Of a stretch of 64,000 bases of DNA, positions 25,702 to 56,767 are shown one piece after another. Both the position numbers and the translations under genes were made by a program. This DNA comes from Rhodobacteraceae bacterium HIMB11 (lineage in GTDB: Bacteria > Pseudomonadota > Alphaproteobacteria > Rhodobacterales > Rhodobacteraceae). The notes beneath the pieces are model-generated. The model saw nothing but the letters and a program-made list of their open reading frames with translations. It did not search any database and was not told the DNA's origin. Location: positions 310,001 to 374,000 of the forward strand of contig AVDB01000001.1 in NCBI GenBank assembly GCA_000472185.1. Reading direction: 5' to 3'. How positions within the stretch are numbered: the stretch's first letter is position 1; every line of letters starts with the position of its first letter.

Positions 25702-25763
25702 AACAAAGTTCCTTTATTTCTTGGGAACAAACTAAAACACCACTATGCGCGGTAAACCCAAAT

Positions 25764-26226: not shown

Positions 26227-26232
26227 TGCATC

Positions 26233-27015: not shown

Positions 27016-27020
27016 CGCAC

Positions 27021-28547
27021 CTAATCACGCAACTTAAATCGTTGAATTTTTCCTGTTGCGGTTTTGGGTAGGTCAGGAACGAATGTAATTTTCCGTGGGT
27101 ATTTCCACTTGCCAATTTTGTCCTGCACAAACTCTTTTATATCGCCGGCATCCGTTTCTGATTTACCTGATTGTAAAACGACAAAAGCTTGTGGTTTTTC
27201 CAAATCGTCATCATCGCGATACGGTACAACGGCGGCCTCTAACACGGCGGGGTGTTCAATGATGGCCTGCTCTACTTCAAATGGCGATAGCCAAATTCCC
27301 GATACTTTGAACATATCGTCTGTACGCCCGCAGTAGATATATCGCCCGTCAGAGGTTTGTTCATACTTATCACCGGTTCTTGTCCAATGGCCTTCAAATG
27401 TGGACTTCGATTTGTCTCTTCTATTCCAATAACTTTCTGCAGAAGATGGGCCATTCACGATCAATTCGCCAATTTCGCCCACCGTGCAATCGTTTCCATT
27501 TTCGTCGACAAGTCGAACGTCATACCCAGGAACTGCCTTACCCGATGTTCCGTACACCAAATCATTGGGGTGATTGGATAAAAAGATATGCAGCATTTCG
27601 GTGGATCCGACACCGTCAACGATGTCTGTTCCTGTCAATGAATTCCAACGTTCGCCCACTTCTCTGGGCAGCGCCTCACCCGCAGAGGTGTTGATACGTA
27701 AATTATGAACAATGTTTTCTGATCGTTGATCTAGATAAGCAAGCAACGCAGCAAACAGTGTTGGGACACCACAGAAAATAGTCGGTTTTCGGCTTTCTAG
27801 TATATCGGTGACCGCGTCGGGAGTCGGACGGTTCGTAAACAAAAGGGTTGTTGCACCAACGGACATCGGGAAACTCATCGCGTTCCCAAGTCCGTAGGCG
27901 AAGAACAATTTTGCCGCCGAGTACACGACATCATCTTCCTTTATGCCCAAAACTTGTTGACCAAAGGTATCTGATGTTGCCTGCAAACTGGCATGTAAAT
28001 GCCGCACGCCTTTGGGCAATCCTGTTGATCCAGATGAATAAAGCCAAAACGCCAATTCATCACCGCTTGCCTCAATCGGTGTCAGCGCATGCGCGTCTTT
28101 GACGAAGCTATCGAAATTTGTGGTGTTCTCTGGCGTATCACCGATTACGATTACATGGCGAATACAATCGATGTCAGCCAATGCTGGCGAAACCGTATCC
28201 CACAATTCCCTGGACACCACGACGCAAGATGGCCGGCTGTCTTCTAAAATGCCGTTGTAAATCTCTGTAGACAAAAGCGTATTTAATGGGATGGGTGTGA
28301 CACCTGCCTTTAGCGCACCCCAAAATGCTATTGGAAATTCAATTTGATCCAGAACGATCATGGCCATGCGTTCGTCGCGTCGAATATCTGCGCGGCTAAG
28401 AGCGCCTGCGAATAGTGCGCTTTGATGCGCTAAATCACCATATGATATTGATCTTTTTGCGCCGTCAACTTCTACGAACGCGGGCTTGTCGGTGCGTCCC
28501 TCGTCAATATGACGGTCCACAAAATATACAGCAGCATTGCTGTTCAT
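27021..28547 (-). CDS. bclA: Benzoate-CoA ligase family enzyme
   Basis: 508 residues from the ATG at 28547, which follows AGGGAGAT; the frame extends six codons further without a ribosome site. Adenylation motifs: WLYSSGSTGLPKGVRH (P-loop), VGSTEML, GRTDDMFKVSGIWLSPFEVE and a C-terminal PKTATGKIQRFKLR with the catalytic Lys. This matches the benzoate-CoA ligase clade. It makes benzoyl-CoA from benzoate, CoA and ATP, the substrate of BoxAB. A terminator at 28641-28687 separates it from the TRAP operon upstream. Confidence 0.9.
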   Translation of the reverse strand: MNSNAAVYFVDRHIDEGRTDKPAFVEVDGAKRSISYGDLAHQSALFAGALSRADIRRDERMAMIVLDQIEFPIAFWGALKAGVTPIPLNTLLSTEIYNGILEDSRPSCVVVSRELWDTVSPALADIDCIRHVIVIGDTPENTTNFDSFVKDAHALTPIEASGDELAFWLYSSGSTGLPKGVRHLHASLQATSDTFGQQVLGIKEDDVVYSAAKLFFAYGLGNAMSFPMSVGATTLLFTNRPTPDAVTDILESRKPTIFCGVPTLFAALLAYLDQRSENIVHNLRINTSAGEALPREVGERWNSLTGTDIVDGVGSTEMLHIFLSNHPNDLVYGTSGKAVPGYDVRLVDENGNDCTVGEIGELIVNGPSSAESYWNRRDKSKSTFEGHWTRTGDKYEQTSDGRYIYCGRTDDMFKVSGIWLSPFEVEQAIIEHPAVLEAAVVPYRDDDDLEKPQAFVVLQSGKSETDAGDIKEFVQDKIGKWKYPRKITFVPDLPKTATGKIQRFKLRD

Positions 28548-28640
28548 TTCGTATCTCCCTAGCATCGCACTTTGGTGCGTTTCTCATCATTAATTGATGA
28601 TGTTTTTCTTTATGCTAGACGCGTCAGATCGCTTAACTGG

Positions 28641-40843: not shown

Positions 40844-41971
40844 CTATAGCAAGGGGAGTTCTTTGGGCGCGCGCGTACTTAGCAGGATGGGCACACCATC
40901 TGTGATCAGGATATTTTCCTCGGTGACCATAATGCCGCCCCCATCGACGCCGATGCTGGGCTCTAGGGTCAGAACCATGTTTTCCCGAATGATGGTTTCG
41001 TCCCAGGCGGCGAGTGATGGCCATTCGGTCAATTGCATCCCCAACCCATGACCAAAACGTCCTACGTCGGAATTTTGCGTGTCCATCGACTTTGCCATGG
41101 CGGCGAATAGATCGCAGGCCCGAACACCGGGGCGGGCCATTTCCATCGCTGCATCCGTTGCATCGTATAGTTTCGCATAGGCACGCTGCGCAGACTTTGT
41201 TGGCGTTCCAACCGCATAGTTGCGATCAAAATCGCAGAAATATCCGTTCAGCGTTGCGCCCGTGTCTAACATTAAAATTTGCCCATTGGACAAGGGTCGA
41301 TCATCGGGTGGCGAAATCACATCGTCATAGGATGGATGATCAACACCCCCAACCAAATAGGGCACATCGTCTGCACCCAGTTCCAACAACATGCGTTTGA
41401 ATTCCCGAAATACCGACGACAGCGAATGACCCGCGTTTGCGATTTCAGGAACGCGTGCAAATCCTTGGCTCGCGATCCCACAAATTTGACGGATATAGGC
41501 GATTTCACGGTCTGATTTCACCATGCGCAGGTCGCGGATGATGTCCGTCGCATCGATCCATTCTGCGGGCAATGCCGCGCGCAATTCAAACACATCATTC
41601 AATGGCATGCGGAATGTGGTTTCGTGCCCCATCAACACGCCTAAACGCTGACAATTACCGAGCCGATCCTTCAATAGGGATAGGCCGTCATCATGCGGGC
41701 GCGGTGCGGGCCATGCCTCAATCTCGGCGATGTCTGAACGTGCCATCAGCTCGGCACCAATTTCGGGAATGATCGCCAATGGCGTTTGATCGCGCCGCAA
41801 AATCACAAACCATGGGCGTGTGGGGCTTTGCCAGAACTGTGTGCGAAATCCCGTGAAATAGCGGACCTCGGCCTCGCTTGCCAGCAATATGGCGTCAAGG
41901 CTGTTTGCGTGCATTGCACGGTTCGCGGTCTCTAGGCGTGCTTCGTATTCTGCGCGCGGGAAATCAGTCAT
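40844..41971 (-). CDS. M24 family metallopeptidase (Xaa-Pro peptidase/ectoine hydrolase-like)
   Basis: 375 residues with an N-terminal creatinase-like domain (~1-150) and a C-terminal pita-bread domain. Metal ligands: Asp in LDTGA and CDFDRN, His in FGHGLGMQLTEWP, Glu in LEPSI and in TEENIL. Such enzymes hydrolyse Xaa-Pro peptides, creatine or the ectoine ring. It overlaps the preceding PLP lyase gene by eight bases. DoeA/EutD-type roles occur in gene clusters with a PLP enzyme and a racemase like the one across the promoter, but the other eut genes are absent here. Confidence 0.85.
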   Translation of the reverse strand: MTDFPRAEYEARLETANRAMHANSLDAILLASEAEVRYFTGFRTQFWQSPTRPWFVILRRDQTPLAIIPEIGAELMARSDIAEIEAWPAPRPHDDGLSLLKDRLGNCQRLGVLMGHETTFRMPLNDVFELRAALPAEWIDATDIIRDLRMVKSDREIAYIRQICGIASQGFARVPEIANAGHSLSSVFREFKRMLLELGADDVPYLVGGVDHPSYDDVISPPDDRPLSNGQILMLDTGATLNGYFCDFDRNYAVGTPTKSAQRAYAKLYDATDAAMEMARPGVRACDLFAAMAKSMDTQNSDVGRFGHGLGMQLTEWPSLAAWDETIIRENMVLTLEPSIGVDGGGIMVTEENILITDGVPILLSTRAPKELPLL

Positions 41972-43028
41972 TCACGGCCCCTTCGGAAACAATACACATC
42001 ACACGGGATGTTGCGTTCAGACCAAATTCACCCTGCGATGCACCAATCAACGCTGCCGCTAAACCCGCCCCGCCAGACGGGCTGGTGGCCAAGCCTAGTT
42101 CGGCCAATCGCGGTAATTGATTTTCTACATCTTCATCCGTCAGGGTCGTGAAATCGTTGGCATGTCGGGCCAATGCATCAAGTGCGGACAAAGAGGCCCG
42201 TTTACAATCCAATCGTCCCATGCTGGACACACCTTCGCCCGCATCACACAAGGCACCCAATTGCACCGCTGCCTGAAGGGCAGGTGCGCGGTCAGGTTCA
42301 ACAACAATGATCCGCAAATCTGGACCATACGCCTCGCGCAGATATAGCGCCATGGCCGCGGCCAATCCGCCAACGCCCGCTTGCAAAAATAAATGTGTTG
42401 GCGGTTCTGGGCACTGTTCCACAATCTCTTTCGCGGACAGCATGTAACCCTTCATCACATCTGCACCCACCGCATATCCGGGCCAGGTGGAATCGGACAA
42501 TAAAAACCAACCATTTTCCTTGGCTGCTTGTTCGGCTGCCGACATGCTGGCCTCATAATCGACACCCTCAACCACGACATCGGCACCGATTGAACGCAGC
42601 TTTTCTTGGAAACTGGCGGGGACTGTTTCGGCCAGATAAATCACCGCTTTGGCGCCAAATGCATTTGCGCCTGCCACAACGGATAAACCATGATTGCCCG
42701 CGCTGGCGGTAACAAAGGTCATGTCTGATAGTACATTTTCAAAACCGTCGTTTTTGGCGCGGTCTTGGGCGATGGTCGCGATGACAGATGCCGCGCCCAA
42801 TGCTTTAAAACTACCCAATCCCATCCGCGTGCGTTCATCTTTGACATACAAGGCGCTAATTTCGATTTGGGCCGCGTTCGTATCTATCGAATGCAGCGGT
42901 GTTTTGTCCGCTTTGGGACATATGGCGTAAAGGTGTCCAAGCGCTTCAATCTCGGTTGTCAGTTTCACCGCCTCGGGTAAATCAAGGCCAGTTCCAATAT
43001 GCGGGTTTTGTATGTTTATCAGGGTCAT
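41964..43028 (-). CDS. Diaminopropionate ammonia-lyase-like PLP enzyme
   Basis: 354 residues from the ATG at 43028 (no strong ribosome site; a TTG at 43064 also lies in frame). The PLP lysine is in GLGSFKALGAASV, and SAGNHGLSVV follows, the phosphate-binding loop of fold-type II enzymes; VEPDRAPALQ and AGVGGLAAAM are also present. It resembles diaminopropionate ammonia-lyase, which removes both amino groups from 2,3-diaminopropionate, but threonine dehydratase-like activity is possible. First gene of a four-gene operon with M24, a dioxygenase-like gene and DUF1330. Confidence 0.8.
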   Translation of the reverse strand: MTLINIQNPHIGTGLDLPEAVKLTTEIEALGHLYAICPKADKTPLHSIDTNAAQIEISALYVKDERTRMGLGSFKALGAASVIATIAQDRAKNDGFENVLSDMTFVTASAGNHGLSVVAGANAFGAKAVIYLAETVPASFQEKLRSIGADVVVEGVDYEASMSAAEQAAKENGWFLLSDSTWPGYAVGADVMKGYMLSAKEIVEQCPEPPTHLFLQAGVGGLAAAMALYLREAYGPDLRIIVVEPDRAPALQAAVQLGALCDAGEGVSSMGRLDCKRASLSALDALARHANDFTTLTDEDVENQLPRLAELGLATSPSGGAGLAAALIGASQGEFGLNATSRVMCIVSEGAVND

Positions 43029-43122
43029 ATTTGCAGCATGGTCAAAAATATTTTCAACCGTCAAGCGGGTTTACACACACCTGAAACCTGAATAGCGTTT
43101 TCGCAAAAGACAGGGATCGAAC

Positions 43123-43860
43123 ATGACGGCCTTTCCATTTGACACAAATCCGAATGAACCGACAAAACTGGGCCTGATCGTCCTAAGTTCAGACGAAACA
43201 ATCGAGGATGAGTTTCGCGCGATGCTGCCGAAATCATGTTCCCTGTTTCAAACGCGCATTCATTCCGCACCCGAAGTGACGCCAGATACGCTCATGGAAA
43301 TGAAAGCGGGACTTGCCACATCGGCGGCGATGATCCCGCCCAGTTTTGATGTGGATGTCATCGGATATGCCTGTACATCGGGGGCCACAATGATTGGCCC
43401 CAGCAATGTCGCGACCGAGGTGCAAAAGGTGCATCCAAATTCACAGGTTTGCACGCCAATCACGGCAGTAATGCGTGCGCTGAATACTCTGGGTGCGAGA
43501 AAAATTGGGATGGTGACACCCTATATCCGAGATGTCAGCCAAGAGATGCGCAATTTGTTGATCGAAAACGGATTTGAAATTTCCGCACTGGTTTCATTTG
43601 AGGTCAGCACCGAAGCCATTGTTGCACGCATCACCGCAGATGCGATTAAACGCGCAGTGCGCGCCGCAGCAGTCGATGGGGCAGATGCGGTTTTTGTATC
43701 CTGCACGAATTTGCGAACCGTGGATGTGATTGACGAGTTGGAAGATGAACTGGGGATTGCAATCGTCACGTCAAATCAGGCGCTGGCGTGGGACATGCTG
43801 ACATCCGCGGGTATTTCAGCGGTGCAGTCTGCGGTGCCGGGTCGGTTGTCAAAAATCTAG
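43123..43860 (+). CDS. Asp/Glu racemase-fold protein (maleate isomerase/EutA-like)
   Basis: 245 residues. Two Cys in the right setting for this fold: GYACTSGATMIGP (near residue 87) and FVSCTNLRTVDV (near residue 194). This pair is used by racemases, maleate isomerases and arylmalonate decarboxylases, and by EutA of ectoine gene sets. It is divergent from the PLP lyase/M24 operon with a 94-base gap, so the two sides probably share regulation and substrate. Reaction not set. Confidence 0.8.
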   Translation: MTAFPFDTNPNEPTKLGLIVLSSDETIEDEFRAMLPKSCSLFQTRIHSAPEVTPDTLMEMKAGLATSAAMIPPSFDVDVIGYACTSGATMIGPSNVATEVQKVHPNSQVCTPITAVMRALNTLGARKIGMVTPYIRDVSQEMRNLLIENGFEISALVSFEVSTEAIVARITADAIKRAVRAAAVDGADAVFVSCTNLRTVDVIDELEDELGIAIVTSNQALAWDMLTSAGISAVQSAVPGRLSKI

Positions 43861-43920: not shown

Positions 43921-44136
43921 ATGAAATCAGTTCATGACCTAAACGACGCGCAGGTGTCCGATATCGTGCAGATGGCTTTATCTGATCATGTTGCTTTTGC
44001 GGATATTGAACATCAGTACGGCCTAAAGGAAAAGGAAGTGGTCGCGTTGATGCGCAATACCTTGCGCACTGGGTCCTATCGGGCTTGGCGTAAACGGGTT
44101 GCCACATTTGGCCGTCGACGCGAACATTATAAATAA
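43921..44136 (+). CDS. Small DUF2805/TIGR03643 family protein
   Basis: 71 residues, rich in charged residues, with a helix-turn-helix-like core (VAFADIEHQYGLKEKEVVAL) and a basic end. The start MKSVHDLNDAQVSDIVQMAL is the family's usual form. Function unknown. It follows the racemase-fold gene by 60 bases and converges with the Rieske gene after four bases. Confidence 0.8.
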   Translation: MKSVHDLNDAQVSDIVQMALSDHVAFADIEHQYGLKEKEVVALMRNTLRTGSYRAWRKRVATFGRRREHYK

Positions 44137-44140
44137 TCCG

Positions 44141-45289
44141 CTATGTCGCGATCAGTTCCTCGACAACCAGATTGAACCGATTAAGCGCCCCTTCGAACCG
44201 ACCGAACAGATGGCTTGGGTTTCCTTTTGAGGCGAACCCCGCCTGAACCTCTTCACCTAATACAAAATCTTCCATCAGCGCGGTTACGGTGATGCGTTGG
44301 TTTTTATCCCAATAGGCCTGCTTTTCCTCTGTTTGGGGTTCATCACGATGGGCCAATGTTGCCATGCGAACGCGCGTTTCATTGAACGATAGTGGTTCAT
44401 AATGAAACAGCATCACGTGATCCTGCTGGACCAACATCTGTACGTTGGGAACCAGCGTATACAACAGGTTTGCATCCTGCCGAATGGCCCAGTTTTCTTG
44501 GGGTATTTTGTGTAATTCGGGCATTGAGATACGCGGCAACACGGCACGCATATGTGTTTCGAATTGGCGGTAGGTTAGCAGATTATCGGGGAAATAGGGG
44601 GCAATCGTGTCTTTATGTGCGATGCGAAAATGATAGGCCTCTAACCCGCCTTCAAACAGCACTTTCCAGTTCGCTTTGATGGTCTTTGTTTCCAGAGCCA
44701 TGATTTTATGTTTGTCCAACTCTAGCCAGTTGAAATCATCCGCCAATCCACCCAGCCATTGATCGATATTGGGAATATCGGCGGCATCAGGATTTGCAAT
44801 GATCCAGATAAAACCATGCGCCTCGGCACAGGGTAGGCGTCGTAGGCCCCGTTCAGCGCGTGCTAGATCGGGGAAACCTTGTGCCTCTTGTGTGACGCCG
44901 CGTAGATCGCCTTGGTTCGTCCAACTCCAACCGTGATATGGGCATGTAAAAACGCGTTTGCACCCTGTGACGGAGCGTTCAACCTTGGCGCCGCGGTGCC
45001 GACACACGTTTAGAAAGGCATTCACGTCGCCCGCTTCATTTCGCGTCAAAAGTAGGGGTAGGCCTATAAAATCGCGCGCGATAAACGAATTTTTCCCAAC
45101 CAATTCCGAACTATGCGCTGCCACAACGGGTTTGCGGCGAAAAATCATGGCCTGTTCACGTTCAAATCGTTCGGGGCTTGAATATCGGGAAATTGGTGAA
45201 TGCGCGATTGTTTCATCCAAAAAGGTTGATTTCTGTTCGGCCAATCCAATGATTTCCTGAATCAGTTTTATTTCGGTTTGACGGTCCAT
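44141..45289 (-). CDS. Aromatic ring-hydroxylating oxygenase, Rieske alpha subunit (second)
   Basis: 382 residues after AAGGAGG. Rieske ligands C96, H98, C116, H119, at the same positions as in the protein at 16765. The mononuclear iron region is FEGGLEAYHFRIAH. It shares segments such as VAAHSSEL, AFLNVCRHRGAKVE and DFVLGEEVQ with that paralogue. No electron-transfer partner gene is adjacent. It is divergent from a TetR gene, and the gap contains an 18-base operator-like repeat, so TetR repression is likely. Confidence 0.88.
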   Translation of the reverse strand: MDRQTEIKLIQEIIGLAEQKSTFLDETIAHSPISRYSSPERFEREQAMIFRRKPVVAAHSSELVGKNSFIARDFIGLPLLLTRNEAGDVNAFLNVCRHRGAKVERSVTGCKRVFTCPYHGWSWTNQGDLRGVTQEAQGFPDLARAERGLRRLPCAEAHGFIWIIANPDAADIPNIDQWLGGLADDFNWLELDKHKIMALETKTIKANWKVLFEGGLEAYHFRIAHKDTIAPYFPDNLLTYRQFETHMRAVLPRISMPELHKIPQENWAIRQDANLLYTLVPNVQMLVQQDHVMLFHYEPLSFNETRVRMATLAHRDEPQTEEKQAYWDKNQRITVTALMEDFVLGEEVQAGFASKGNPSHLFGRFEGALNRFNLVVEELIAT

Positions 45290-45995: not shown

Positions 45996-46883
45996 TTAAC
46001 GCTGAACCAACGACGCAACTGTTGAAATATCGAAATGCCCCTTTAATCCGATGACTACTATGCCTATTGGGAAGTGATCCTGCACCTGTTTAAGTTGTAA
46101 GGCGCCACTTGATATTTGGATTAGCCATCTATTGTTCGCTATATCTTCAAAATACCCTTTGGCTCTCTCTATACCAGTAGCATTCAAAAGCAGATTTCCC
46201 AAATTCACTGGATCATCAATATTTGATGGGTAGATCACCACACTATCGAAGACATCGTCTGCGTGATCAGTATCGCTACACGCTGCGCTAATTCCTTGTA
46301 GCTCTTCGAGAATTTCGAATGAGATGTTTGAAAAGGTGGTAGAAGCGATAAGATTAGCGTTTAAATCCACCGATATTTGTTCTTTAATCAGCTCCAGTTT
46401 TTGTGCAGAACAAGCATCGGTTTTATTGAGGATGATCAGATTTGAATTTTCAATTTGGCTTGCAATAAGATCAGAGACATACCCGTCACGTAGTTTTTGC
46501 AAAACATTTGAACAATCAACAATGCAAACAACACCTGCCATGAAGAATTTATTTAACAACCCAACGTTTGCTACTATTTGATTTGGGAGAGCGACACCCG
46601 AGCTTTCGATCAGAATATAGTCGGGTGCTGGCAAAAATTTTGCTAAATCACTTAACGCACCACTTAAGTCATCGCCAAATGAACAACAAATACATCCACC
46701 GCTAATAGAAATTAAATTATCATCTTTTGCCTCAATTAAATCTTCATCAATTGCGAGTTCACCAAACTCATTGACCAATATGGCGAGACGCTTCCCGTTT
46801 GGCTCACGGAGTAAATTGTTGATGAGTGTAGTTTTTCCCGCACCCAAATATCCGCTTACCAAGATTACAGGGGTTTCTTTCAC
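45996..46883 (-). CDS. CobW/COG0523 family GTPase, paralogue 1
   Basis: 295 residues. Walker A GYLGAGKTTLINN, the metal-binding CxCC in SGGCICCSFGDDL, ESSGVALP (G3 region) and NKTD (G4) are all present. The C-terminal CobW_C domain is short. The family loads zinc or other metals into client enzymes using GTP. It overlaps the amidohydrolase gene by four bases, pointing to that metal enzyme as its client. Base composition is AT-rich here: 46681-46740 has only 17 G or C in 60. A paralogue lies at 55871. Confidence 0.88.
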   Translation of the reverse strand: MKETPVILVSGYLGAGKTTLINNLLREPNGKRLAILVNEFGELAIDEDLIEAKDDNLISISGGCICCSFGDDLSGALSDLAKFLPAPDYILIESSGVALPNQIVANVGLLNKFFMAGVVCIVDCSNVLQKLRDGYVSDLIASQIENSNLIILNKTDACSAQKLELIKEQISVDLNANLIASTTFSNISFEILEELQGISAACSDTDHADDVFDSVVIYPSNIDDPVNLGNLLLNATGIERAKGYFEDIANNRWLIQISSGALQLKQVQDHFPIGIVVIGLKGHFDISTVASLVQR

Positions 46884-48526
46884 GATAAATTATCCGCTTC
46901 GAAAATTCTGCCAGATTGTACGGTACCCCAAACGGCAATATTTTTAAGATCGACAGGTTTTGCCTCAAAGGGATCATCCTCTAGAATTGCAAAATCGGCT
47001 CGTTTACCAATTTCTATCGATCCAATTTCATGATCCATATGCAATGTGTAAGCTGCTCCTAATGTAATTGCGAACATTGCTTCTTCTATTGAAATTTTTT
47101 CATGTTCGCCTTGTACACGTTCTGACACAGTTAATCGGTTGACTGCGCACCAAGCCGTGAATAGCGGTGCGAGTGGTGTAATTGGTGCATCTGAATGGAT
47201 TGCCATGTTGACATTCGCGTCTAAGGCGGTTCGGCATGCGTTCATTCTCTCGGCTCTTTCTGGTCCGACGGTGAGCCTGTAATGCTCGTCACCCCAATAA
47301 TAGTGATGATTTGCGAACAAGTTTACACACATTCCCAATTTGGACATTTTTCGGAACTGCGCCGTAGATGCGAGCTGGCAATGTTGAAGCGTAAATCTAT
47401 GATCGAATGATGGATGAACCTTCAAAACAGCTTCAAGGGTTTCTATCGCTAATTGGGTTGCTTGATCTCCATTCGTGTGGGTGTGGATTTGGAGATTGTT
47501 TTCAAGCGCCAACGAGTACAACTCAAGAAGTTGTTCGGGTGAAGTATACCACAAGCCATTTGGCGAACCATTGAAATAGCCTGGCCAGTTCAGTCGAGCA
47601 GAAAATCCTTGAATTGAACCATCTAAAACCGCTTTTATCCGTCCTAAGCGCAACCGCTCTGTGCTTAGTGTCTGTATTTCTTTGACAAACTCCACGAGGT
47701 CTTTGGGCGACATTCCAAAAAAAACTTTCAGGGGAACAATGCAAGCAGGGAAATTTGCCTCCCCTGTTACCCGCAGCATCATGCTCACGCTCTCTTCAGT
47801 TAAACGAGCTGCAAGATCAGTGCAGGTTGTAACGCCTGCTCTTACGCAAAGCCTCGCATAATCGCGTAGGCCTTGCTCATCACAGTCAGTCATAGATCTA
47901 TCAAATCCAACATGTTTACCGACTGGGGTCATTGCATCAGGACCGTATAATTCTCCGGTTGGATATCCATCATTACCTATGGGAATACCCGGATGATTGA
48001 TCCCCTTTTTTAATAGCCCCGCTAACTCAAGTCCTTTAGAATTCACGTTTAATATATGACCTGATGCGTGTAGGACACCTATCGGGCGTGTCCGCGAAAC
48101 TTGGTCTAAAGCTTGCCGAGATATTCTCTGATTATCCATATAAATTGGATCAATAGACCAGCCTGACAGTGGTAAATCTTCATTGGAAAGTTCTTTTTCG
48201 GCGGCTGATAATCGTTCAATTATTTCGTTTATGCTTTTTAGACCTGGCCAAGTTTTACCACTAGGATCTGTCCGATCGAACCAGCCTAAATACACTTTAC
48301 GCCACAAAGTGCCTTCCATGGTGTGTGCATGGCCTTCGACAAAGCCGGGCATAATCACTTTTTCGTTAAAGGTATCATCTAGGTCAAATTCACCCCAAGA
48401 CGCCAACTCTTCTAGGCTACCTGCACCTAATATTTTTCCTTCTTTCACGGCTACGTGTGAAACTATGGGCCGACATGGGTTCATAGTGTAGATCTTTTTT
48501 GCTGAATATATTTTGGTTTTTTGCAT
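46880..48526 (-). CDS. YtcJ/NfdA-like metal-dependent amidohydrolase, paralogue 1
   Basis: 548 residues. Metal ligands of the amidohydrolase fold: HxH in PGFVEGHAHTMEG, later HTHTNGDQ, LQHCQLAS and the final Asp in AIHSDAPITP. The C-terminal IGKRADFAILEDDPF strand is usual. Family members hydrolyse N-acyl or N-formyl amines. The start is near ABC genes on the other side of a divergent promoter (48527-48748), so the substrate may be what that transporter imports. The stop overlaps the CobW gene start (ATGA). A paralogue lies at 54246. Confidence 0.87.
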   Translation of the reverse strand: MQKTKIYSAKKIYTMNPCRPIVSHVAVKEGKILGAGSLEELASWGEFDLDDTFNEKVIMPGFVEGHAHTMEGTLWRKVYLGWFDRTDPSGKTWPGLKSINEIIERLSAAEKELSNEDLPLSGWSIDPIYMDNQRISRQALDQVSRTRPIGVLHASGHILNVNSKGLELAGLLKKGINHPGIPIGNDGYPTGELYGPDAMTPVGKHVGFDRSMTDCDEQGLRDYARLCVRAGVTTCTDLAARLTEESVSMMLRVTGEANFPACIVPLKVFFGMSPKDLVEFVKEIQTLSTERLRLGRIKAVLDGSIQGFSARLNWPGYFNGSPNGLWYTSPEQLLELYSLALENNLQIHTHTNGDQATQLAIETLEAVLKVHPSFDHRFTLQHCQLASTAQFRKMSKLGMCVNLFANHHYYWGDEHYRLTVGPERAERMNACRTALDANVNMAIHSDAPITPLAPLFTAWCAVNRLTVSERVQGEHEKISIEEAMFAITLGAAYTLHMDHEIGSIEIGKRADFAILEDDPFEAKPVDLKNIAVWGTVQSGRIFEADNLS

Positions 48527-48588
48527 TTAAGGCCTTCCAAAGATTTTCGGTATCTTCAGGGACCAATGAATACTACATTTTTGGTTGT

Positions 48589-48625
48589 GTCAGCAGATTT
48601 ATGTAAATTACCAATGTCTGCTGAC
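48589..48625. promoter_or_regulatory. Inverted repeat in the divergent promoter of the amidohydrolase and ABC transporter genes
   Basis: Perfect 9-base arms GTCAGCAGA and TCTGCTGAC with a 19-base spacer. No T run follows on either strand, so a terminator is unlikely. It lies 63 bases upstream of the amidohydrolase start and 124 upstream of the binding-protein start. Two operator halves one regulator could bridge are the best reading; no regulator gene is beside it. Confidence 0.5.
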
Positions 48626-48748
48626 TCAGCGCAACATAACCTCCCAGAGACATAGATTAATTTTGTATGAGATTGGGAAAATCATTGTCATGAGCTCATT
48701 AGTGAGTCTAGGCTACCTTATAACATAGTAATAATCAGGGAGTTAATC

Positions 48749-50323
48749 GTGAGAAAATTCACAAGAAATGTGGCAGCTGCTATGTCACTTGTGGCTTTTA
48801 CGGCCGCCGGTGTTATTGCAGACACGCCCACGCGTGGTGGTACGCTTGTTACTGTACTGGGTTCAAACGTTCGCAATCTAAATTCCGCAGTCCAATCTGG
48901 GATTGTAACGGGATATCCTGGTGCGCAATTATTTGCCTCACCTCTAAGATACGATGATAGCTGGACACCTCAACCCTATCTTGCGGAGAGTTGGGATGTG
49001 AGTGATGACGGAATGTCAGTGACGCTCAACCTAGTCAAGAATGCGACTTTCCATGATGGTCAACCAATCACATCAAGTGATGTTGCCTTCTCGGTTGAGG
49101 TGATAAAGAACAATCACCCCTTTAAATCTATGTTTGCGCCAGTTGAAAATGTAGAAACACCAGATGCGCATACGGCGATTTTGAAATTATCAAAACCCCA
49201 TCCTGCATTAATGTTGGCAATGTCGGGCCAATTAATGTCGATCATCCCCGAACACATTTACGGCGATGTTCCGATAAATGAGGTAAAAACTCATCCGCGC
49301 AACAATGAAAATGTTGTCGGATCTGGTCCATTTAAGTTAGTAGAGTTCAAAAACGGTGAACACGTAATCCTTGAAAGATATGACGGTTTTTTCATGGAAG
49401 GTCGTCCTTATCTTGATAAGGTAGTGATGCGTATCATCACGGATCCTGCCGCGCGGGCAATCGCTTATGAAAACGGCGAAGTGCATATGGGTGCATTTGA
49501 GTCACTACCGCGCGTAATAAACCGGCTGAAAAAGGCTGATGGATTAAATGTTACACCCGATGGCTATGGGGGCATTGGTCCACTCGATTGGTTAGCAATC
49601 AACACCACCAAAGGACCGCTCGCTGATGTTCGTGTACGGAAAGCCATTGCGCACGCGATCGATAAAAACTTTATCATGAAGGCAATTATGCAAGGCACGG
49701 CTTCTGAAAGTAGAACAGGTATTCACCCAGATAGTCCGTTCTATAGTGCTGACGTTGAAGCATATGCGCTCGATTTAGATAAAGCGAATGCACTGTTGGA
49801 TGAAGCAGGGTATCCAAAGAATGGTGATACGCGTTTCAGTGTAACAATTGATTTTGGTTGGCCTGGCGTAAAGCCACAAGTGGAGTATGTGAAAGCAGCG
49901 CTCAAAAAAGTTGGTATAGATGTCGAAGTGCGAGCCAGCGCCGACTTTCCTACCTGGGCTAAGCGAATGGGGACCATGGACTTTGATTTGTCCTGGGATA
50001 CCGTGTTTAACTGGGGTGATCCAGTTATCGGGGTACACCGCACCTACGATTCTAGTAATATTGCAAAAGGCGTTTGGTCCAACACCCAAGGATATAGCAA
50101 TGCTCGAGTTGATGAATTGATGCAAATGGCGGCAGTCGAAAACGACATGGAAAAACGAAAAGCCTTGTATGCTGAATTCCAGGCGATTATTGCCGATGAG
50201 GTCCCAGTTTATCATGTCAATACACTGCCTTATCATACCGTGTATTCTGATAAGATCGGCAATCCACCGATTGGAATCTGGGCTACGTCCTCACCAATTG
50301 ATATGGTTTATCTGAAGGATTAA
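48749..50323 (+). CDS. ABC transporter, family 5 (peptide/nickel/opine) solute-binding protein
   Basis: 524 residues, GTG start after CAGGGAG. Signal peptide (RKFTRNVAAAMSLVAFTAAG, cleaved near VIADTP). The mature protein starts TRGGTLVTVL and carries AESWDVSDDGMSVTLNLVKNATFHDGQPI, the family's N-terminal mark, and later NTTKGPLADVRVRKAIAHAID. It binds peptide-like or amide solutes in the periplasm. First of five transporter genes. A 13-base hairpin follows its stop. It lies between two amidohydrolase genes, so an N-acylated amine or amide cargo is plausible. Confidence 0.92.
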   Translation: MRKFTRNVAAAMSLVAFTAAGVIADTPTRGGTLVTVLGSNVRNLNSAVQSGIVTGYPGAQLFASPLRYDDSWTPQPYLAESWDVSDDGMSVTLNLVKNATFHDGQPITSSDVAFSVEVIKNNHPFKSMFAPVENVETPDAHTAILKLSKPHPALMLAMSGQLMSIIPEHIYGDVPINEVKTHPRNNENVVGSGPFKLVEFKNGEHVILERYDGFFMEGRPYLDKVVMRIITDPAARAIAYENGEVHMGAFESLPRVINRLKKADGLNVTPDGYGGIGPLDWLAINTTKGPLADVRVRKAIAHAIDKNFIMKAIMQGTASESRTGIHPDSPFYSADVEAYALDLDKANALLDEAGYPKNGDTRFSVTIDFGWPGVKPQVEYVKAALKKVGIDVEVRASADFPTWAKRMGTMDFDLSWDTVFNWGDPVIGVHRTYDSSNIAKGVWSNTQGYSNARVDELMQMAAVENDMEKRKALYAEFQAIIADEVPVYHVNTLPYHTVYSDKIGNPPIGIWATSSPIDMVYLKD

Positions 50324-50335
50324 TTTCCTTAAATA

Positions 50336-50365
50336 GCACCCCGCATTCGTATGAATGCGGGGTGC
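50336..50365 (+). other. Hairpin between the binding-protein and permease genes
   Basis: Perfect 13-base stem GCACCCCGCATTC with GAATGCGGGGTGC and a GTAT loop, 13 bases after the stop codon. No T run, so an mRNA stabiliser is more likely than a terminator. It argues against the in-frame ATG at 50355 as the permease start. Confidence 0.75.
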
Positions 50366-50384
50366 TCAAAGAGGTAGTAGAGCA

Positions 50385-51362
50385 TTGAAAACATTTGGCT
50401 TGATTGTGAACCGATTGGTTTATGCTTTTGTCTTGTTGTTTGCGGTCCTGGTGTTAAATTTCACACTGATGCATATGGCACCTGGTGATGTTGCAGACAC
50501 TATTTCTCAATCGATGGGTGGTGCTGACGAAGAGCTATTAATTGAAATTCGCAAGGATTATGGATTAGATCAGCCATATTACCAACAGTTGGTGACGTAC
50601 ATCGGAAAAGTACTGCGTTTTGATTTGGGGCATTCGTTTTTCTTCAATGAGCCAGTGTCAAAACTTGTTTTGGAAAGGGTCCCTGCGACTTTACTACTCG
50701 TCATAACCGCTCAGATTTTAGCATTATTGCTCGGTGTAGTTCTCGGTGTTTACTCAGCCCGAAAACCCAACGGTATACTGAGCCATTTTGTAACTCTTTT
50801 TGCGTTATTTGGTTATTCTGCTCCAGTGTTTTGGACTGGAATACTTCTGTTGATAGCGTTTTCTTTGCAGATACCACTCTTCCCGGTTGCTGGAATGAGG
50901 GATGTAACCATCGAGGGAAATTTCTGGGTACATGCAATAGACGTAATGAAACACATGGTATTGCCTGTTTTAACTTTAGCATCAATTTTTCTCGCCCTGT
51001 ATTCGCGTCTTGCTAGAGCAACGATGATCGAAACGCTTGGGACAGATTTCGTTCGAACGGCACGAGCAAAAGGATTACCCGAAAGGCAAGTGGTTTATAA
51101 ACATGCTCTGCGAAACTCACTTTCACCAGTCGTAACGCTCGCAGGTCTACAATTCTCAGCAGTGGTGTCAGGTGCTGTATTAGTCGAAGCTGTATTTAGT
51201 TGGCCAGGACTTGGAACTTTAGCATTTCAATCGATAATTGCTCGAGATACGCCTACTATTCTAGGTATTTTGTTTTTTTCTGCGTTGGTTGTAATCATTG
51301 GAAATTTACTCACAGATTTGGCTTTGCGTTTCGTGGATCCACGAGTTGGAGCTTCGAAATGA
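50385..51362 (+). CDS. ABC transporter permease, DppB-like
   Basis: 325 residues. The start is read as TTG at 50385 with GAGG upstream, giving the normal N-terminus MKTFGLIVNRLVYAFVLLF; the ATG at 50355 is inside a hairpin. Six membrane helices. Family motifs: HMAPGD near residue 31 and the EAA loop in DFVRTARAKGLPERQVVYKHALRNSL. It forms half of the membrane channel with the DppC-like protein. The stop overlaps the next start (ATGA). Confidence 0.9.
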   Translation: MKTFGLIVNRLVYAFVLLFAVLVLNFTLMHMAPGDVADTISQSMGGADEELLIEIRKDYGLDQPYYQQLVTYIGKVLRFDLGHSFFFNEPVSKLVLERVPATLLLVITAQILALLLGVVLGVYSARKPNGILSHFVTLFALFGYSAPVFWTGILLLIAFSLQIPLFPVAGMRDVTIEGNFWVHAIDVMKHMVLPVLTLASIFLALYSRLARATMIETLGTDFVRTARAKGLPERQVVYKHALRNSLSPVVTLAGLQFSAVVSGAVLVEAVFSWPGLGTLAFQSIIARDTPTILGILFFSALVVIIGNLLTDLALRFVDPRVGASK

Positions 51363-52243
51363 TGGATAGGAAAACAGAAAATAGCGAGTATTTAGAGCAA
51401 GCTAGTAGCCCTTCAGCTGAAGCCTGGGAAATGTTTAAACGTAACCATGCAGCAATGGCAGGTTTGGTAATTCTCTTTGTTATTACTATCGGTTCAATTT
51501 TTGGGCCATTGATATACCCAACAGATCCTTTTGACATGGTTTGGGCGCCATTTTCTCCACCCGGAGAGGAAGGCTATTTGTTTGGTACTGATTACTTAGG
51601 GCGTGACTTACTCGCCATGGTTATCCATGGCGCGCGTGTCTCCTTGGTTATTGGTTTGTCGGCTGCGATTGTGTCGATTTTCATCGGTGTTACGATTGGC
51701 GCTCTTGCTGGGTTTTATAGAGGTTATATTGAAGAAATATTGATGCGCGTCACAGAATTCTTTCAAGTACTCCCCACTTTATTATTTTCGATGGTAATCG
51801 TCGCTCTCTTTGGCGCAAGCCTCACTATGATTACGATAGCTATTGGTATAGTAAGCTGGACGGCCGTTGCGAGAATAACGCGCTCTGAGTTTTTGAGAAT
51901 AAGAGAGCTCGAGTATGTTATGGCATCTAGAGCTTCAGGCGTATCAAATACAAAATTAATGTTTGGGATTATCTTACCAAATGCATTGCCGCCGATAATT
52001 GTACAGTCTGCGTTAATGGTTGGATCGGCGATTTTATTTGAAGCAGGCTTGTCATTTCTAGGTTTAACGGATCCAAATGTTGTAAGTTGGGGACAAATTA
52101 TTGGTTCAAACAGGCAATATATTCTAGATGCTAGCTATACTGTTACAATACCAGGCATCGCAATCTTTGTTACAGTTTTGGCTATTTCACTTGTAGGTGA
52201 CGGTTTGAATGATGCACTTAATCCGAAATTGAGGGCGCGCTAG
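51359..52243 (+). CDS. ABC transporter permease, DppC-like
   Basis: 294 residues from the ATG at 51359, which overlaps the DppB stop by four bases; the frame extends upstream into dppB and that part is rejected. N-terminal cytoplasmic stretch ending WEMFKRNHAAMAGLVILF, then six membrane helices; the motif FGTDYLGRDLLAMVIHGARVSL is the family mark, and the EAA loop is ASRASGVSNTKLMFGIILPN. One base overlap with the following ATPase gene (TAGTG). AT-rich codon use is visible. Confidence 0.9.
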   Translation: MMDRKTENSEYLEQASSPSAEAWEMFKRNHAAMAGLVILFVITIGSIFGPLIYPTDPFDMVWAPFSPPGEEGYLFGTDYLGRDLLAMVIHGARVSLVIGLSAAIVSIFIGVTIGALAGFYRGYIEEILMRVTEFFQVLPTLLFSMVIVALFGASLTMITIAIGIVSWTAVARITRSEFLRIRELEYVMASRASGVSNTKLMFGIILPNALPPIIVQSALMVGSAILFEAGLSFLGLTDPNVVSWGQIIGSNRQYILDASYTVTIPGIAIFVTVLAISLVGDGLNDALNPKLRAR

Positions 52244-53241
52244 TGGTAGATAAACTTCTGGAAGTAAAGAACCTTCGCGTTGAATTGCAGACCAAAGATG
52301 GCGTCGTCCCGGTGATCGACGACCTTTCATTTGATCTGGACTATGGTGAAAGCCTGAGTTTCGTTGGAGAGTCTGGCTGCGGCAAATCAATGACGGCACT
52401 AGCTTTGATGGGCCTACTTCCTGAGAAAGTTGGTAGAATTGCGAGTGGAAGTATTAAATTTGAGGGACGACAACTCGCTAATGCATCTTCAGAGGATTTA
52501 CGCAAAATTCGTGGTAATGAAATTTCGATGATTTTTCAGGAACCAATGACTTCACTCAATCCAGTTTTAAGCGTAGGTGAACAAATTTCAGAAGTGTTGA
52601 GGTTGCATCAGAAAATGTCGGTTAATTCCGCATGGAAACGAGCTGAAGATTTGTTGGACGCCGTGAATATCCCAGATCCGAAACGCAGGGTGCATGATTA
52701 TCCATTTCAAATGTCTGGGGGTCAAAGGCAGCGCGTTATGATTGCAATGGCGCTAGCATGTGAGCCTAAAATATTGATAGCAGATGAGCCCACGACTGCT
52801 CTGGATGTGACAGTTCAAGCACAAATTTTTGGATTGTTGAAGGATTTACAAACAAAAACAGGCACCTCAATTATACTGATTACACATGACATGGGTGCCG
52901 TCGCACAAATGGCTCGAAAAATGATTGTAATGTATGCAGGAAGGCCTTGTGAAATTGGAGAGGTTGCACAAGTTATAAAAACGCCTCAGCATCCTTACAC
53001 TACTGGTTTAATCTCATGTGTTCCTCACCTTGATGATGCAATTATAGATGCAAATAATCGTTTATCAGAGATACCGGGTATTGTGCCCAGCTTGAGAGAA
53101 TTTGGCAGCAACAAGTGTCTTTTTGCATCCAGGTGCAAACATCAAATGGAACAATGTCGGGCTGAGCGTCCAGTTTTGGCACAATTTTCGAATAAACAAG
53201 CGTTTGCATGCTGGAAAAGAGAGATTATTGATGCAGGCTGA
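52243..53241 (+). CDS. ABC transporter ATP-binding protein, DppD-like
   Basis: 332 residues, GTG start. Walker A GESGCGKSM near residue 43, signature MSGGQRQR, Walker B ILIADEPTTALD and a switch His in ITHDMG. The C-terminal extension with IPGIVPSLREF and Cys-containing RCKHQMEQC is typical of oligopeptide ATPases. It pairs with the DppF-like protein to power transport. The next gene overlaps it by 11 bases. Confidence 0.92.
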   Translation: MVDKLLEVKNLRVELQTKDGVVPVIDDLSFDLDYGESLSFVGESGCGKSMTALALMGLLPEKVGRIASGSIKFEGRQLANASSEDLRKIRGNEISMIFQEPMTSLNPVLSVGEQISEVLRLHQKMSVNSAWKRAEDLLDAVNIPDPKRRVHDYPFQMSGGQRQRVMIAMALACEPKILIADEPTTALDVTVQAQIFGLLKDLQTKTGTSIILITHDMGAVAQMARKMIVMYAGRPCEIGEVAQVIKTPQHPYTTGLISCVPHLDDAIIDANNRLSEIPGIVPSLREFGSNKCLFASRCKHQMEQCRAERPVLAQFSNKQAFACWKREIIDAG

Positions 53242-54217
53242 TGAGCAGGACCGCCCACTTCTAAAGGTTCGCAATTTACGTGTGGAGTTTGCGACAAAAT
53301 CAAATATTTTTTCGCGTCAAAAAAGCTCTGTGAAAGCCGTAGATGGGATTTCTTTTGACATTAAACGGGGTGAAACATTAGGCCTTGTGGGGGAAAGCGG
53401 CTCTGGAAAAACCACAGCAGCTTTAGCAATTGCCAGGTTACTCGAAGCATCTGGGGGTGAAGTCAACTTGAATAATGTTGATTTACTTCAGCTTGAAAGA
53501 GAAGACTTACGACAAGCTAGAACAAAATTGCAGTTCATTTTTCAAGATCCATATTCAAGCCTCAATCCTAGAAAAAGAGCAGAAGAAATTGTGCGGGAGC
53601 CACTCGATAGCTTAACTGACTTTGACCAGGTAAAGCGGCAAAAGATAGTGGATAATCTATTCGATTCCGTTGGTCTAAGGCACGAACAAAAGAAATTGTT
53701 CCCACATCAATTTTCGGGCGGTCAACGACAAAGATTGGGAATTGCGCGCGCACTTTCAACAAACCCAGAACTTGTAATTTGTGATGAAGCGGTTTCAGCG
53801 CTTGATGTGGCTGTTCAGGCTCAGATCCTAAATCTCTTGAAAGATTTACAGGCAAATTTGGGTCTGACTTATTTATTTATTAGCCATGACCTTGGTGTCG
53901 TGAAGCATATGTGCGACTCAGTTGTGGTAATGTACATGGGTAAGGTAGTGGAGCATGCAAATAGAGAGCAACTCTTTTCCGCGCCTAAACATCCCTACAC
54001 AAAAACGCTCCTGAACGCAGTTCCAAAATTGGATGTGGCCTTGGACGTGACTGAAGTACAAAATCAAATGAGCAAAAGTGCAACAGAAAATTCTTTTGTA
54101 AATGGCTGCAAATTCTTCGATAGATGTCCCTTATCTCAGCCGAAATGCAAAGAAGTTGCGCCGGAGTTGGGAGAAACACAAACGGGTCACTGGGTTGCTT
54201 GCCACATGATTTCTTAA
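53231..54217 (+). CDS. ABC transporter ATP-binding protein, DppF-like
   Basis: 328 residues from the ATG at 53231. Walker A GESGSGKTT, signature FSGGQRQR, Walker B VICDEAVSALD with an Ala where the canonical DEP has Pro, and the switch His in ISHDLG. The C-terminal part has FFDRCPLSQPKCKE. It forms the ATPase dimer with the DppD-like protein. It ends 28 bases before the second amidohydrolase gene on the same strand, so that gene may be in the same transcript. Confidence 0.92.
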   Translation: MQADEQDRPLLKVRNLRVEFATKSNIFSRQKSSVKAVDGISFDIKRGETLGLVGESGSGKTTAALAIARLLEASGGEVNLNNVDLLQLEREDLRQARTKLQFIFQDPYSSLNPRKRAEEIVREPLDSLTDFDQVKRQKIVDNLFDSVGLRHEQKKLFPHQFSGGQRQRLGIARALSTNPELVICDEAVSALDVAVQAQILNLLKDLQANLGLTYLFISHDLGVVKHMCDSVVVMYMGKVVEHANREQLFSAPKHPYTKTLLNAVPKLDVALDVTEVQNQMSKSATENSFVNGCKFFDRCPLSQPKCKEVAPELGETQTGHWVACHMIS

Positions 54218-54245
54218 AAGCTTTACGAAGGGTCTCTATTATTAA

Positions 54246-55874
54246 ATGCAAAAAATAACTGTATTTTCAGCAAAAAAAGTTATCACGATGGACCCAAATC
54301 AGCCGAGTGCGACCCATGTCGCGGTGTTGGGTGATCGCATCTTAGCCGTTGGGCAAGCGGATTGTGCAGATCAATGGGGGGATGTGATCCATGACGATTC
54401 ACTTTCTGACTTCGTGCTGACCCCTGGGTTTGTCGAAGGACATGCGCATATGATGGCAGGGGCGATTTGGGATTTTGCCTATGCAGGTTACCATGATCGC
54501 ATTGACCCAGACGGAAAGCTGTGGAGCGGTAAAGGTGATCTAAATACCGTAATTGGGGATTTGTCCGACTACGAAAAAACCCTGCCAGACGATCAACCAT
54601 TGGTGGGGTGGGGATTGGACCCGATTTTCTTACAGGATGAACGGCTAAGCCGTAAACATTTGGATCAAATTAGCGAAACACGCCCGATTGCTGTCATGTT
54701 TTCGAACTTTCACTTGATGTGTGTGAACTCTAAGGCGTTGGACATGGTGGGATACACCAACGAAACCAATGCCGAAGGTGTAATCAAGGATGATGCGGGA
54801 CATCCCACGGGCGAATTGCAGGAAATGGCAGCGATGTTCCCGGTGATGCGTCGTTTGGGCATTGATTTTCGTTCGCTGTCGCAGACTGAACCTGCGATCC
54901 GCAGTTATGCCAAGGTGTGTCAACGTGCAGGTGTGACAACGGTCACGGATTTGTTTTCGACGTTGACGGATGAGGATGTAACAACCCTAACCAGTGTCAC
55001 GGGCGAGGCGCAGTTTCCCGTTCGTATCGTTCCTGCATTGGCCGCTATTGGGGCAGCCCCCGCAGAAATCGCGCAATTCGCATTAAAGCTGCGCTCAATG
55101 TCGACCGATAAATTGCGACTGGGCGCGGTGAAATTGATGACGGATGGATCAATCCAAGGGTGGACCGCGCGTGTCAAATGGCCAGGTTATGTGGGCGGAC
55201 AACCAAATGGTTTGTGGAACACGCCACCTGAATTGATTTATGAATTGGTCGAGGAAATGCAGCGCGCAGGCGTTCAAATGCACATTCATGTCAACGGGGA
55301 CGAGGCATCGGATGTGTCAATCGATGCGATCGAAGCGGCCAGTCGCAAACACCCCTGGCCTGAGGCGCGTCATGTTTTGCAGCATTGTCAGATGATGGGT
55401 GTGGATCAGTTCAAGCGATGCGCAAATATGGGCATTTGCACCAATATTTTTGCCAACCACATTTGGTATTTTGGGGATCAACATGCGGCACTGACCATCG
55501 GGAATGATCGGGCTGAACGTATGGATGCCGTCCGCGCTGCATTGGATGCGGGCGTGAATGTTGCAATCCACTCTGATGCACCCGTGACGCCCATGGGTCC
55601 ACTGTTCACCGCATGGTGCGCCGTGACACGTCAAACGATGTCGGGGCGCGTTCTGGGCGCTGGACAATGCATCTCGGTTGAGGAGGCATTGCACGCCATT
55701 ACCCTTGGGGCGGCCTATACATTGAAACTGGATCGCGATATTGGCAGCATCGAAACAGGAAAAATCGCGGACTTTGCTATTTTGGCTCAAGATCCCACAG
55801 AAAGCGACGGAATTGCGCTCAAGGATATTGAGGTTAAGGGTACCGTAAGCTCAGGGGTCGTACACCTTATATGA
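54246..55874 (+). CDS. YtcJ/NfdA-like metal-dependent amidohydrolase, paralogue 2
   Basis: 542 residues. Clear paralogue of the protein at 46880: shared starts (MQK, then FSAKKVITMD against YSAKKIYTMN), PGFVEGHAH, MTDGSIQGWTARVKWPGY, LQHCQMMG, MGICTNIFANH and AIHSDAP. Metal ligands are the HxH in GHAH, His in HIHVNGDEA, His in LQHC and Asp in HSDAP. It hydrolyses an amide-like bond with zinc, by family. It overlaps the CobW gene after it by four bases. Its composition is much more G+C rich than paralogue 1 (37 of 60 at 55621-55680). Confidence 0.87.
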   Translation: MQKITVFSAKKVITMDPNQPSATHVAVLGDRILAVGQADCADQWGDVIHDDSLSDFVLTPGFVEGHAHMMAGAIWDFAYAGYHDRIDPDGKLWSGKGDLNTVIGDLSDYEKTLPDDQPLVGWGLDPIFLQDERLSRKHLDQISETRPIAVMFSNFHLMCVNSKALDMVGYTNETNAEGVIKDDAGHPTGELQEMAAMFPVMRRLGIDFRSLSQTEPAIRSYAKVCQRAGVTTVTDLFSTLTDEDVTTLTSVTGEAQFPVRIVPALAAIGAAPAEIAQFALKLRSMSTDKLRLGAVKLMTDGSIQGWTARVKWPGYVGGQPNGLWNTPPELIYELVEEMQRAGVQMHIHVNGDEASDVSIDAIEAASRKHPWPEARHVLQHCQMMGVDQFKRCANMGICTNIFANHIWYFGDQHAALTIGNDRAERMDAVRAALDAGVNVAIHSDAPVTPMGPLFTAWCAVTRQTMSGRVLGAGQCISVEEALHAITLGAAYTLKLDRDIGSIETGKIADFAILAQDPTESDGIALKDIEVKGTVSSGVVHLI

Positions 55875-56767
55875 CAGGCATACCACTTACCGTCATCGGC
55901 GGATATCTAGGTGCGGGTAAAACTACACTGATCAATCAAATTTTACGCGACCCTCAAGGTAAGCGGTATTTGGTCATGGTTAATGATTTTGGCGCGATCA
56001 ATGTTGATGCCTCGCTCTTGGCTTCGGCGGATGAGGATACCATTCAGCTTTCTAATGGCTGTGTGTGTTGCACGATGGGCGCGGATCTCTTCCTAGCGAT
56101 TGGAGATGTGTTGGATGGAGATATGCGCCCTGACCACATTGTGATTGAGGCCAGTGGTATTGCCGATCCCGCAAAAATCGCGAATGTCGCCGTGGCAGAA
56201 CCCGATTTGGTGTATCAGGGGATTATCACGGTCGTGGATGGCGCGAATATTTTGGATCAGCTTGTCGATCGCTTCGTCGGGGATCAAGTCCGTGATCAAA
56301 TCCGCGTGGCTGATTTGATTTACGTCTCGAAAACTGAACTGAGCGACCATTTGTCCATGCAACTGACTACAATCAGCAAAGCTCCCATTCTGGAAAGCGA
56401 TGCCGCGACAATTGAAATGTTGCTGTCCCCTAGCACACCAAAGGCTCCCAACCCAACTACTGCACCACACACGGCCTATACCAAATGGTTTACAGAGGCC
56501 GATGTCGCATTCAATCGAAATACCCTGATCTATGCCCTTCAAAATCGTCCAGAGGGTGTATTTCGGATGAAGGGATTTGTGCGTGCAGAAACCCGCATGT
56601 TATCGGTGCATGTGGTTGGGGCGCATATAGATGTCACAACCTTTCCCAATGATGTTGAAACGGGATTGGTTGCCATCGGGCTTGCCTCAGAAATGAATCC
56701 GCAGGATTTAAATAAATGGTGGGCCAAGGCTAAGGAAAAGGCCCTGACACCCTATTCGATGCTATAG
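55871..56767 (+). CDS. CobW/COG0523 family GTPase, paralogue 2
   Basis: 298 residues. Walker A GYLGAGKTTLINQ, CxCC in NGCVCCTMGADLF, EASGIADP (G3 region). The G4 segment, usually NKxD, reads SKTE here, so guanine recognition may be changed. A short CobW_C domain follows. By family it delivers a metal, probably zinc, to a client. The four-base overlap with the amidohydrolase gene, repeated exactly in the other pair, makes that enzyme the likely client. A weak hairpin (GCCC/GGGC at about 56800) follows. Confidence 0.86.
   Translation: MTGIPLTVIGGYLGAGKTTLINQILRDPQGKRYLVMVNDFGAINVDASLLASADEDTIQLSNGCVCCTMGADLFLAIGDVLDGDMRPDHIVIEASGIADPAKIANVAVAEPDLVYQGIITVVDGANILDQLVDRFVGDQVRDQIRVADLIYVSKTELSDHLSMQLTTISKAPILESDAATIEMLLSPSTPKAPNPTTAPHTAYTKWFTEADVAFNRNTLIYALQNRPEGVFRMKGFVRAETRMLSVHVVGAHIDVTTFPNDVETGLVAIGLASEMNPQDLNKWWAKAKEKALTPYSML

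Follow-up and report, generated by a model that had tools for sequence, protein, structure and literature searches.

Amidohydrolase genes paired with their own COG0523 GTPase genes: two cassettes around a peptide-type ABC importer in Rhodobacteraceae bacterium HIMB11 and a putative chaperone-client relation

Urease is an amidohydrolase-fold enzyme with a carboxylated lysine, and the insertases UreG and HypB are G3E GTPases encoded with their clients. Within the related group COG0523, for which Haas et al. (2009) defined fifteen subgroups, Nha3 (subgroup 2) is reported to be required for the activity of Fe-type nitrile hydratase in vivo (PMC2770081). BwBSH1, an enzyme of the Amidohydro_3 family, has six metal ligands that alanine mutants show to be essential, and its metal-ligand lysine is predicted to be carboxylated (PMC13081902). 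Here we describe a locus in Rhodobacteraceae bacterium HIMB11, within a stretch of 64,000 nucleotides (contig AVDB01000001.1, positions 310,001 to 374,000; hereafter the window), in which a YtcJ-type amidohydrolase gene is followed by a COG0523 GTPase gene on each side of a five-gene ATP-binding cassette (ABC) importer operon. We refer to the pairs as AH1-CobW1 and AH2-CobW2. We think that the unit is probably the two-gene cassette, an amidohydrolase with its own COG0523 GTPase, and not the nine-gene block.

The pairing is conserved in many other genomes. With only the amidohydrolase alignment as the query, 84,980 species genomes were scanned and 65 loci retrieved; six plasmid loci were added. 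Sequence downstream of the amidohydrolase gene was present at 68 loci, three of which encode distant YtcJ proteins (<36% identity). Where the amidohydrolase is at least 40% identical, 60 of 65 loci have a COG0523 gene immediately after it in the same orientation (L023, counted among the 60, is truncated); none of the three distant loci does. Since the loci were fetched by the amidohydrolase alone, this pairing is beyond chance. Another 12 loci came from whole genomes of relatives; a COG0523 gene is adjacent in 10 of them, and CobW is present at L131 and L132 (tblastn). The hosts are Alpha-, Beta- and Gammaproteobacteria; among them, the culturable marine roseobacters Sulfitobacter sp. HGT1 and Roseobacter sp. 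GAI101 have one cassette each. Thus, the neighborhood search that the first-pass annotation had proposed finds the pairing in other genomes. The pairing had also been called fixed, which is true of most loci but not of all: the amidohydrolases at L033, L044 and L136, and a supported amidohydrolase clade (L014, L042 and L064), have no adjacent CobW. The L044 locus, from a Desulfobacteraceae metagenome-assembled genome (MAG), has three tandem YtcJ-type amidohydrolases (9989-15074) and no CobW. In genome G012, two tandem AH2-type enzymes with a LysR gene and an ABC operon have no adjacent CobW, and a CobW of the AH2-linked type is found ~0.73 Mb away (L172, reverse strand), directly after a tRNA-Arg(tct) gene (10100-10176). 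The separation in G012 and the clade without CobW indicate that the pair can be split and that CobW can be lost.

Enzyme and GTPase have been inherited together. AH1 and AH2 fall into separate, well-supported clades of the enzyme tree, each made up mostly of CobW-bearing members. When 17 unlinked COG0523 proteins from the genomes of related bacteria are included, the amidohydrolase-linked GTPases group as one clade apart from them (SH-aLRT 99). Inside that clade, GTPases linked to AH1 and those linked to AH2 fall into separate clades (starred in the tree), mirroring the enzyme tree. The pairwise distance matrices of enzymes and GTPases are correlated with r = 0.81, a value that includes shared species history, and none of 5000 permutations was as high. 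The GTPases diverge faster than their partners; for example, between the AH1 cassette and that of L021 the amidohydrolases are 72% identical and the GTPases 40%. CobW1 itself sits on a long branch. Because the linked GTPases form a single clade and their tree mirrors that of the enzymes, the pairing is of ancient origin, although one or more enzyme clades have lost it. Stable linkage and congruent trees fit a dedicated chaperone-client pair, in which dependence of the client is predicted by analogy. We consider it likely, on balance, that these genes allow an amide or cyclic amide to be imported and hydrolyzed, and that a dedicated GTPase assembles the dinuclear metal site of the hydrolase.

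The predicted metal site is highly conserved. AH1 and AH2 are 49% identical over their full length, and CobW1 and CobW2 are 32% identical, consistent with their earlier description as paralogues. Both amidohydrolases match Amidohydro_3 over their full length (228.5 and 261.6 bits; gathering cut-off 29.7). Six residues, H66, H68, K296, H348, H380 and D444 (HxH, Lys, His, His, Asp), are invariant in 82 of 82 amidohydrolases; the last four align to 3ICJ, and all six match the BwBSH1 ligands by motif. The predicted model of AH2 has a pLDDT of 95, and its nearest solved folds are 3IGH and 3ICJ. AH1 and AH2 therefore have the fold and the six metal residues of described YtcJ/COG1574 enzymes. However, whereas AH1 and AH2 come paired, no COG0523 partner is reported for BwBSH1, and CobW is not mentioned in the paper (PMC13081902).

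Several observations weigh against this reading of the pair as chaperone and client. BwBSH1, a distant member of Amidohydro_3, was active, with 0.59 Zn per monomer, when obtained from E. coli (PMC13081902). The amidohydrolases without CobW retain every metal ligand, which makes assembly of the site without the GTPase probable, and the COG0523 proteins found in the L014, L042 and L064 genomes are only of unlinked types. The CobW of G012, whose presence in that genome would otherwise favor the client relation, has what looks like a frameshift in a run of G residues close to its start, either real or a sequencing error. In addition, many of the 65 loci are from related MAGs, so 60 of 65 does not mean 60 independent events. 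The first two points in particular could be explained if the GTPase were auxiliary, aiding metallation only when metal is limiting or when a wrong metal competes, with the enzyme working alone in rich conditions. We regard this as a real though unlikely alternative: the pair has been co-inherited for a long time, through exchanges of transporter and across three proteobacterial classes, which suggests steady selection. A changed metal ligand does not explain where CobW is present, since the ligands are identical with and without it. The substitutions that stand out in the CobW-free clade are R309 to K, P328 to V or L, C381 to V and D496 to E.

CobW1 and CobW2 have the hallmarks of COG0523 proteins but belong to none of the characterized types with which they were compared. 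Both have a PF02492 domain with Walker A, GxCxCC and ExSG motifs. In CobW1 the P-loop is GYLGAGKTT, the CxCC motif is GGCICC and NKTD is present; in CobW2 the CxCC motif is NGCVCC. P-loop and CxCC are kept in all 67 linked GTPases examined, most of which are about 290-330 amino acids long. (Long "CobW" open reading frames at L055, L062 and L063 are upstream extensions and not fusions.) The CobW_C domain of Pfam matches CobW2 (36 bits; cut-off 22) and not CobW1, and the predicted model of CobW2 has a C-terminal alpha/beta domain. That model matches YjiA (1NIJ) best and HypB and UreG more weakly, with modest TM-scores, probably because the domains are oriented differently. CobW1 and CobW2 score far under the equivalog cut-offs for the cobalamin-synthesis CobW (TIGR02475; 121.8 and 112.2 bits versus 332.1), ZigA (NF038288; 95.9 and 105.3 bits versus 600) and YjiA, and their sequences have no His-rich stretch of the kind found in CobN-linked CobW. 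P-loop, CxCC and fold are common to YjiA, ZigA, YciC, CobW and the amidohydrolase-linked GTPases, but the latter form a clade of their own.

Other described systems resemble these pairs in part. Like UreG and HypB, the linked GTPases are encoded with a putative client; however, they belong to COG0523, and no helpers like UreE, UreF, UreH or HypA were recognized beside the pairs. With Fe-type nitrile hydratase and Nha3, too, a COG0523 GTPase is tied genetically to a single metalloenzyme whose substrate is a C-N compound, but client fold and chemistry differ: here the client would be an amidohydrolase with a TIM barrel and a predicted dinuclear site, and the GTPase requirement is putative. The first-pass annotation knew of no system of this make-up, and we found no relevant literature combining CobW, COG0523 or G3E with amidohydrolase, YtcJ or COG1574. 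The main text of Haas et al. (2009), to which our coverage of that study extends, never mentions amidohydrolase; neighborhoods of ten subgroups stand in its supplement (PMC2770081). Within these sources, a COG0523 chaperone-client pair with this candidate client is apparently not yet described.

Different importers accompany the pair at different loci. Most often, the amidohydrolase-CobW genes are divergent from a family-5 ABC operon, frequently with a LysR gene; a related solute-binding protein is present at 43 of 83 loci and a LysR gene at about 28-30, in many homologous loci within the divergent region. AH1-CobW1 and the ABC operon of the window correspond to this standard unit minus LysR. 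Elsewhere, sodium-solute symporter (SSS) and DUF3311 genes, or MFS genes (L040 and L041), precede the pair, or it is accompanied by a TRAP importer and a D-aminoacylase-like enzyme (L037, L039 and G002), as is the CobW-less amidohydrolase of L042. Therefore, the ABC importer is replaceable and no fixed part of the unit. The TRAP and D-aminoacylase-like unit is itself 69-74% identical from Granulosicoccaceae to roseobacters (L037, L039, L042 and L154). Neighbors at other loci include amidases (G002 and L136), a hydantoinase (L138) and 5-oxoprolinase subunits (L007). Together with the D-aminoacylase-like enzyme, these amide-cleaving neighbors suggest that the substrate may be an amide or a cyclic amide, although such enzymes are common in catabolic islands. 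Similarity of the solute-binding protein gave no substrate, as its best PDB matches are too diverse (binders of peptide, nickel, heme and agrocinopine).

These neighborhoods bear on two further explanations. Zur regulons include COG0523 subfamily 1 and paralogues of zinc enzymes (PMC2770081), and the pairing might likewise reflect a zinc-sparing module of paralogous enzymes with YciC/ZigA-like GTPases, regulated by metal limitation in a Zur-type starvation response, rather than a catabolic client relation. This seems improbable. The recurrent regulator is LysR, the neighbors are catabolic importers and amide hydrolases, and the linked GTPases are separate from other COG0523 types; moreover, no Zur-box-like palindrome was found in the window with two consensus patterns, a search that was not exhaustive for alphaproteobacterial variants. 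It is also quite doubtful that the GTPase serves some other metalloenzyme and merely rides in the operon. Clients of COG0523 proteins are described as generally unknown (PMC2770081), but the amidohydrolase is the sole constant partner here, with transporters, regulators and other neighbors varying.

The first reading of the locus, with an amidohydrolase and a COG0523 GTPase on each side of a five-gene importer, is confirmed by Pfam, and all nine genes are open at the positions in Table 1 (open reading frame check of the window). The importer is complete and of the peptide-type family 5, with SBP_bac_5, two permeases and two oligo_HPY ATPases. AH1-CobW1 is divergent from it; AH2 starts 28 nt after its last gene, so ABC-AH2-CobW2 reads as a single operon on the + strand. 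The genes of both pairs overlap by 4 nt as had been noted, but ATGA is found only in pair 2, the overlap in pair 1 being GTGA (+ strand tcac at 46880-46883). A 4-nt overlap occurs in 31 of 60 pairs, and at that frequency it is a sign only of ordinary translational coupling and not a special signature. AH1 and AH2 are the only amidohydrolases of their type in the 3.1 Mb genome, which has three further matches to PF02492 beyond CobW1 and CobW2. A double pair was seen at no other locus examined.

Table 1. Coordinates of the two cassettes, the importer and associated features in the window
Feature	Position	Strand	Description
CobW1	45996..46883	-	COG0523/G3E GTPase; GTG start; PF02492 cobW 1.5e-44
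AH1	46880..48526	-	YtcJ-type amidohydrolase; PF07969 Amidohydro_3 3.2e-67; AH1 clade
Divergent intergenic region, AH1-CobW1 / ABC operon	48527..48748		222 bases; without LysR gene
Family-5 solute-binding protein	48749..50323	+	SBP_bac_5; 84% identity to AH1-linked solute-binding protein of L015
ABC permease B, DppB/OppB-like	50355..51362	+	BPD_transp_1
ABC permease C	51359..52243	+	BPD_transp_1; probable ATG 51359; mechanical ORF start 51200
ABC ATPase D	52243..53241	+	ABC_tran and oligo_HPY
ABC ATPase F	53231..54217	+	ABC_tran and oligo_HPY; probable ATG 53231; mechanical ORF start 53102
AH2	54246..55874	+	YtcJ-type amidohydrolase; PF07969 2.9e-77; AH2 clade
AH2 HxH	54441..54449	+	Predicted metal ligands H66, H68
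AH2 other predicted ligands	K296 55131-55133; H348 55287-55289; H380 55383-55385; D444 55575-55577	+
CobW2	55871..56767	+	COG0523/G3E GTPase; PF02492 cobW 2.7e-42
CobW2 CxCC metal motif	56060..56071	+	C64-C67
Variable segment	44172..56885		Limits set by collinearity with congener G002

The locus is a variable site at which two independent cassettes have been joined. Congener G002 and the window are collinear to the left of 44172 (81% over 101 bases, 44072-44172) and to the right of the segment (94% from 56885), and between these limits only AH2-CobW2 is clearly common to both. At the same site, G002 has TRAP, D-aminoacylase-like, AH2, CobW2, a different ABC operon (solute-binding protein 26% identical), amidase, aldehyde dehydrogenase (ALDH) and short-chain dehydrogenase/reductase (SDR) genes; its AH2 is 93% identical, and its CobW2, interrupted by an assembly gap, is 98% identical on one side and 90% on the other. 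A search of G002 gave no AH1, and the TRAP and D-aminoacylase unit is absent from the window's own genome. Fragmentary genomes of the congeners G001 and G003 (95% and 76% complete) yielded no such amidohydrolase. The paralogy and symmetric layout of the two pairs would suit a local duplication around the ABC operon into a redundant or heteromeric unit, but this is very improbable. A local duplication is refuted by the enzyme tree (separate old clades whose members are also found singly at other loci, in many cases beside a transporter of their own), by base composition (GC 0.43 over 46-54 kb, pair 1 and the importer, versus 0.50 over 54-56 kb, pair 2), by AH2-CobW2 of G002 at the same site without AH1 or the window's ABC operon, and by G030, with both types on different contigs. 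Overall, the window has ABC, AH1-CobW1, TetR and Rieske genes at this site where G002 (L154) has TRAP, D-aminoacylase-like, ABC, amidase and ALDH genes.

Two other gene groups in the window were noted. Genes at 40844-43860 resemble those for ectoine utilization (Xaa-Pro peptidase-like, by eye; diaminopropionate ammonia-lyase-like; and EutA-like, with 175.7 bits, below the cut-off of 318). A cluster of the benzoyl-CoA epoxidation (box) type for aromatic degradation, with a benzoate-CoA ligase-like gene (by eye), lies at 17905-28565.

For the dedicated chaperone-client pair that we favor, we postulate the following. An importer, here of the family-5 ABC type, would take a small amide or cyclic amide into the cytoplasm; candidates are an N-acyl or N-carbamoyl amino acid, a lactam, an imide or a hydantoin-like compound. 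The amidohydrolase would cleave the C-N bond by means of a dinuclear site, possibly of zinc, formed by H66, H68, carboxylated K296, H348, H380 and D444. The translationally coupled GTPase, with its CxCC metal site, would bind the nascent or apo enzyme, and GTP hydrolysis would drive delivery or seating of the metal, by analogy with UreG, HypB and Nha3 acting on their own clients. In HIMB11, the AH1 cassette, together with its ABC operon, has been joined at one variable locus to an AH2 cassette that is differently associated elsewhere, so that a single importer probably supplies two enzymes that differ in specificity. A stronger version, which we put forward tentatively and think unlikely, is that the linked GTPases are a new COG0523 subfamily on which one amidohydrolase clade depends obligately for the GTP-driven assembly of its dinuclear center with a carboxylated lysine, possibly with insertion of a metal other than zinc. 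Urease-like assisted metallation would then extend to a catabolic amidohydrolase cassette that changes importers.

The identity of the proteins that COG0523 GTPases, a poorly understood family, supply with metal has long been in question, and these cassettes provide a candidate client of simple fold that is genetically tied to its GTPase. The CobW-free sister clade (L014, L042 and L064) is a natural control, and the presence of two divergent pairs in one genome makes both dependence and partner specificity (CobW1 with AH2, CobW2 with AH1) directly testable.

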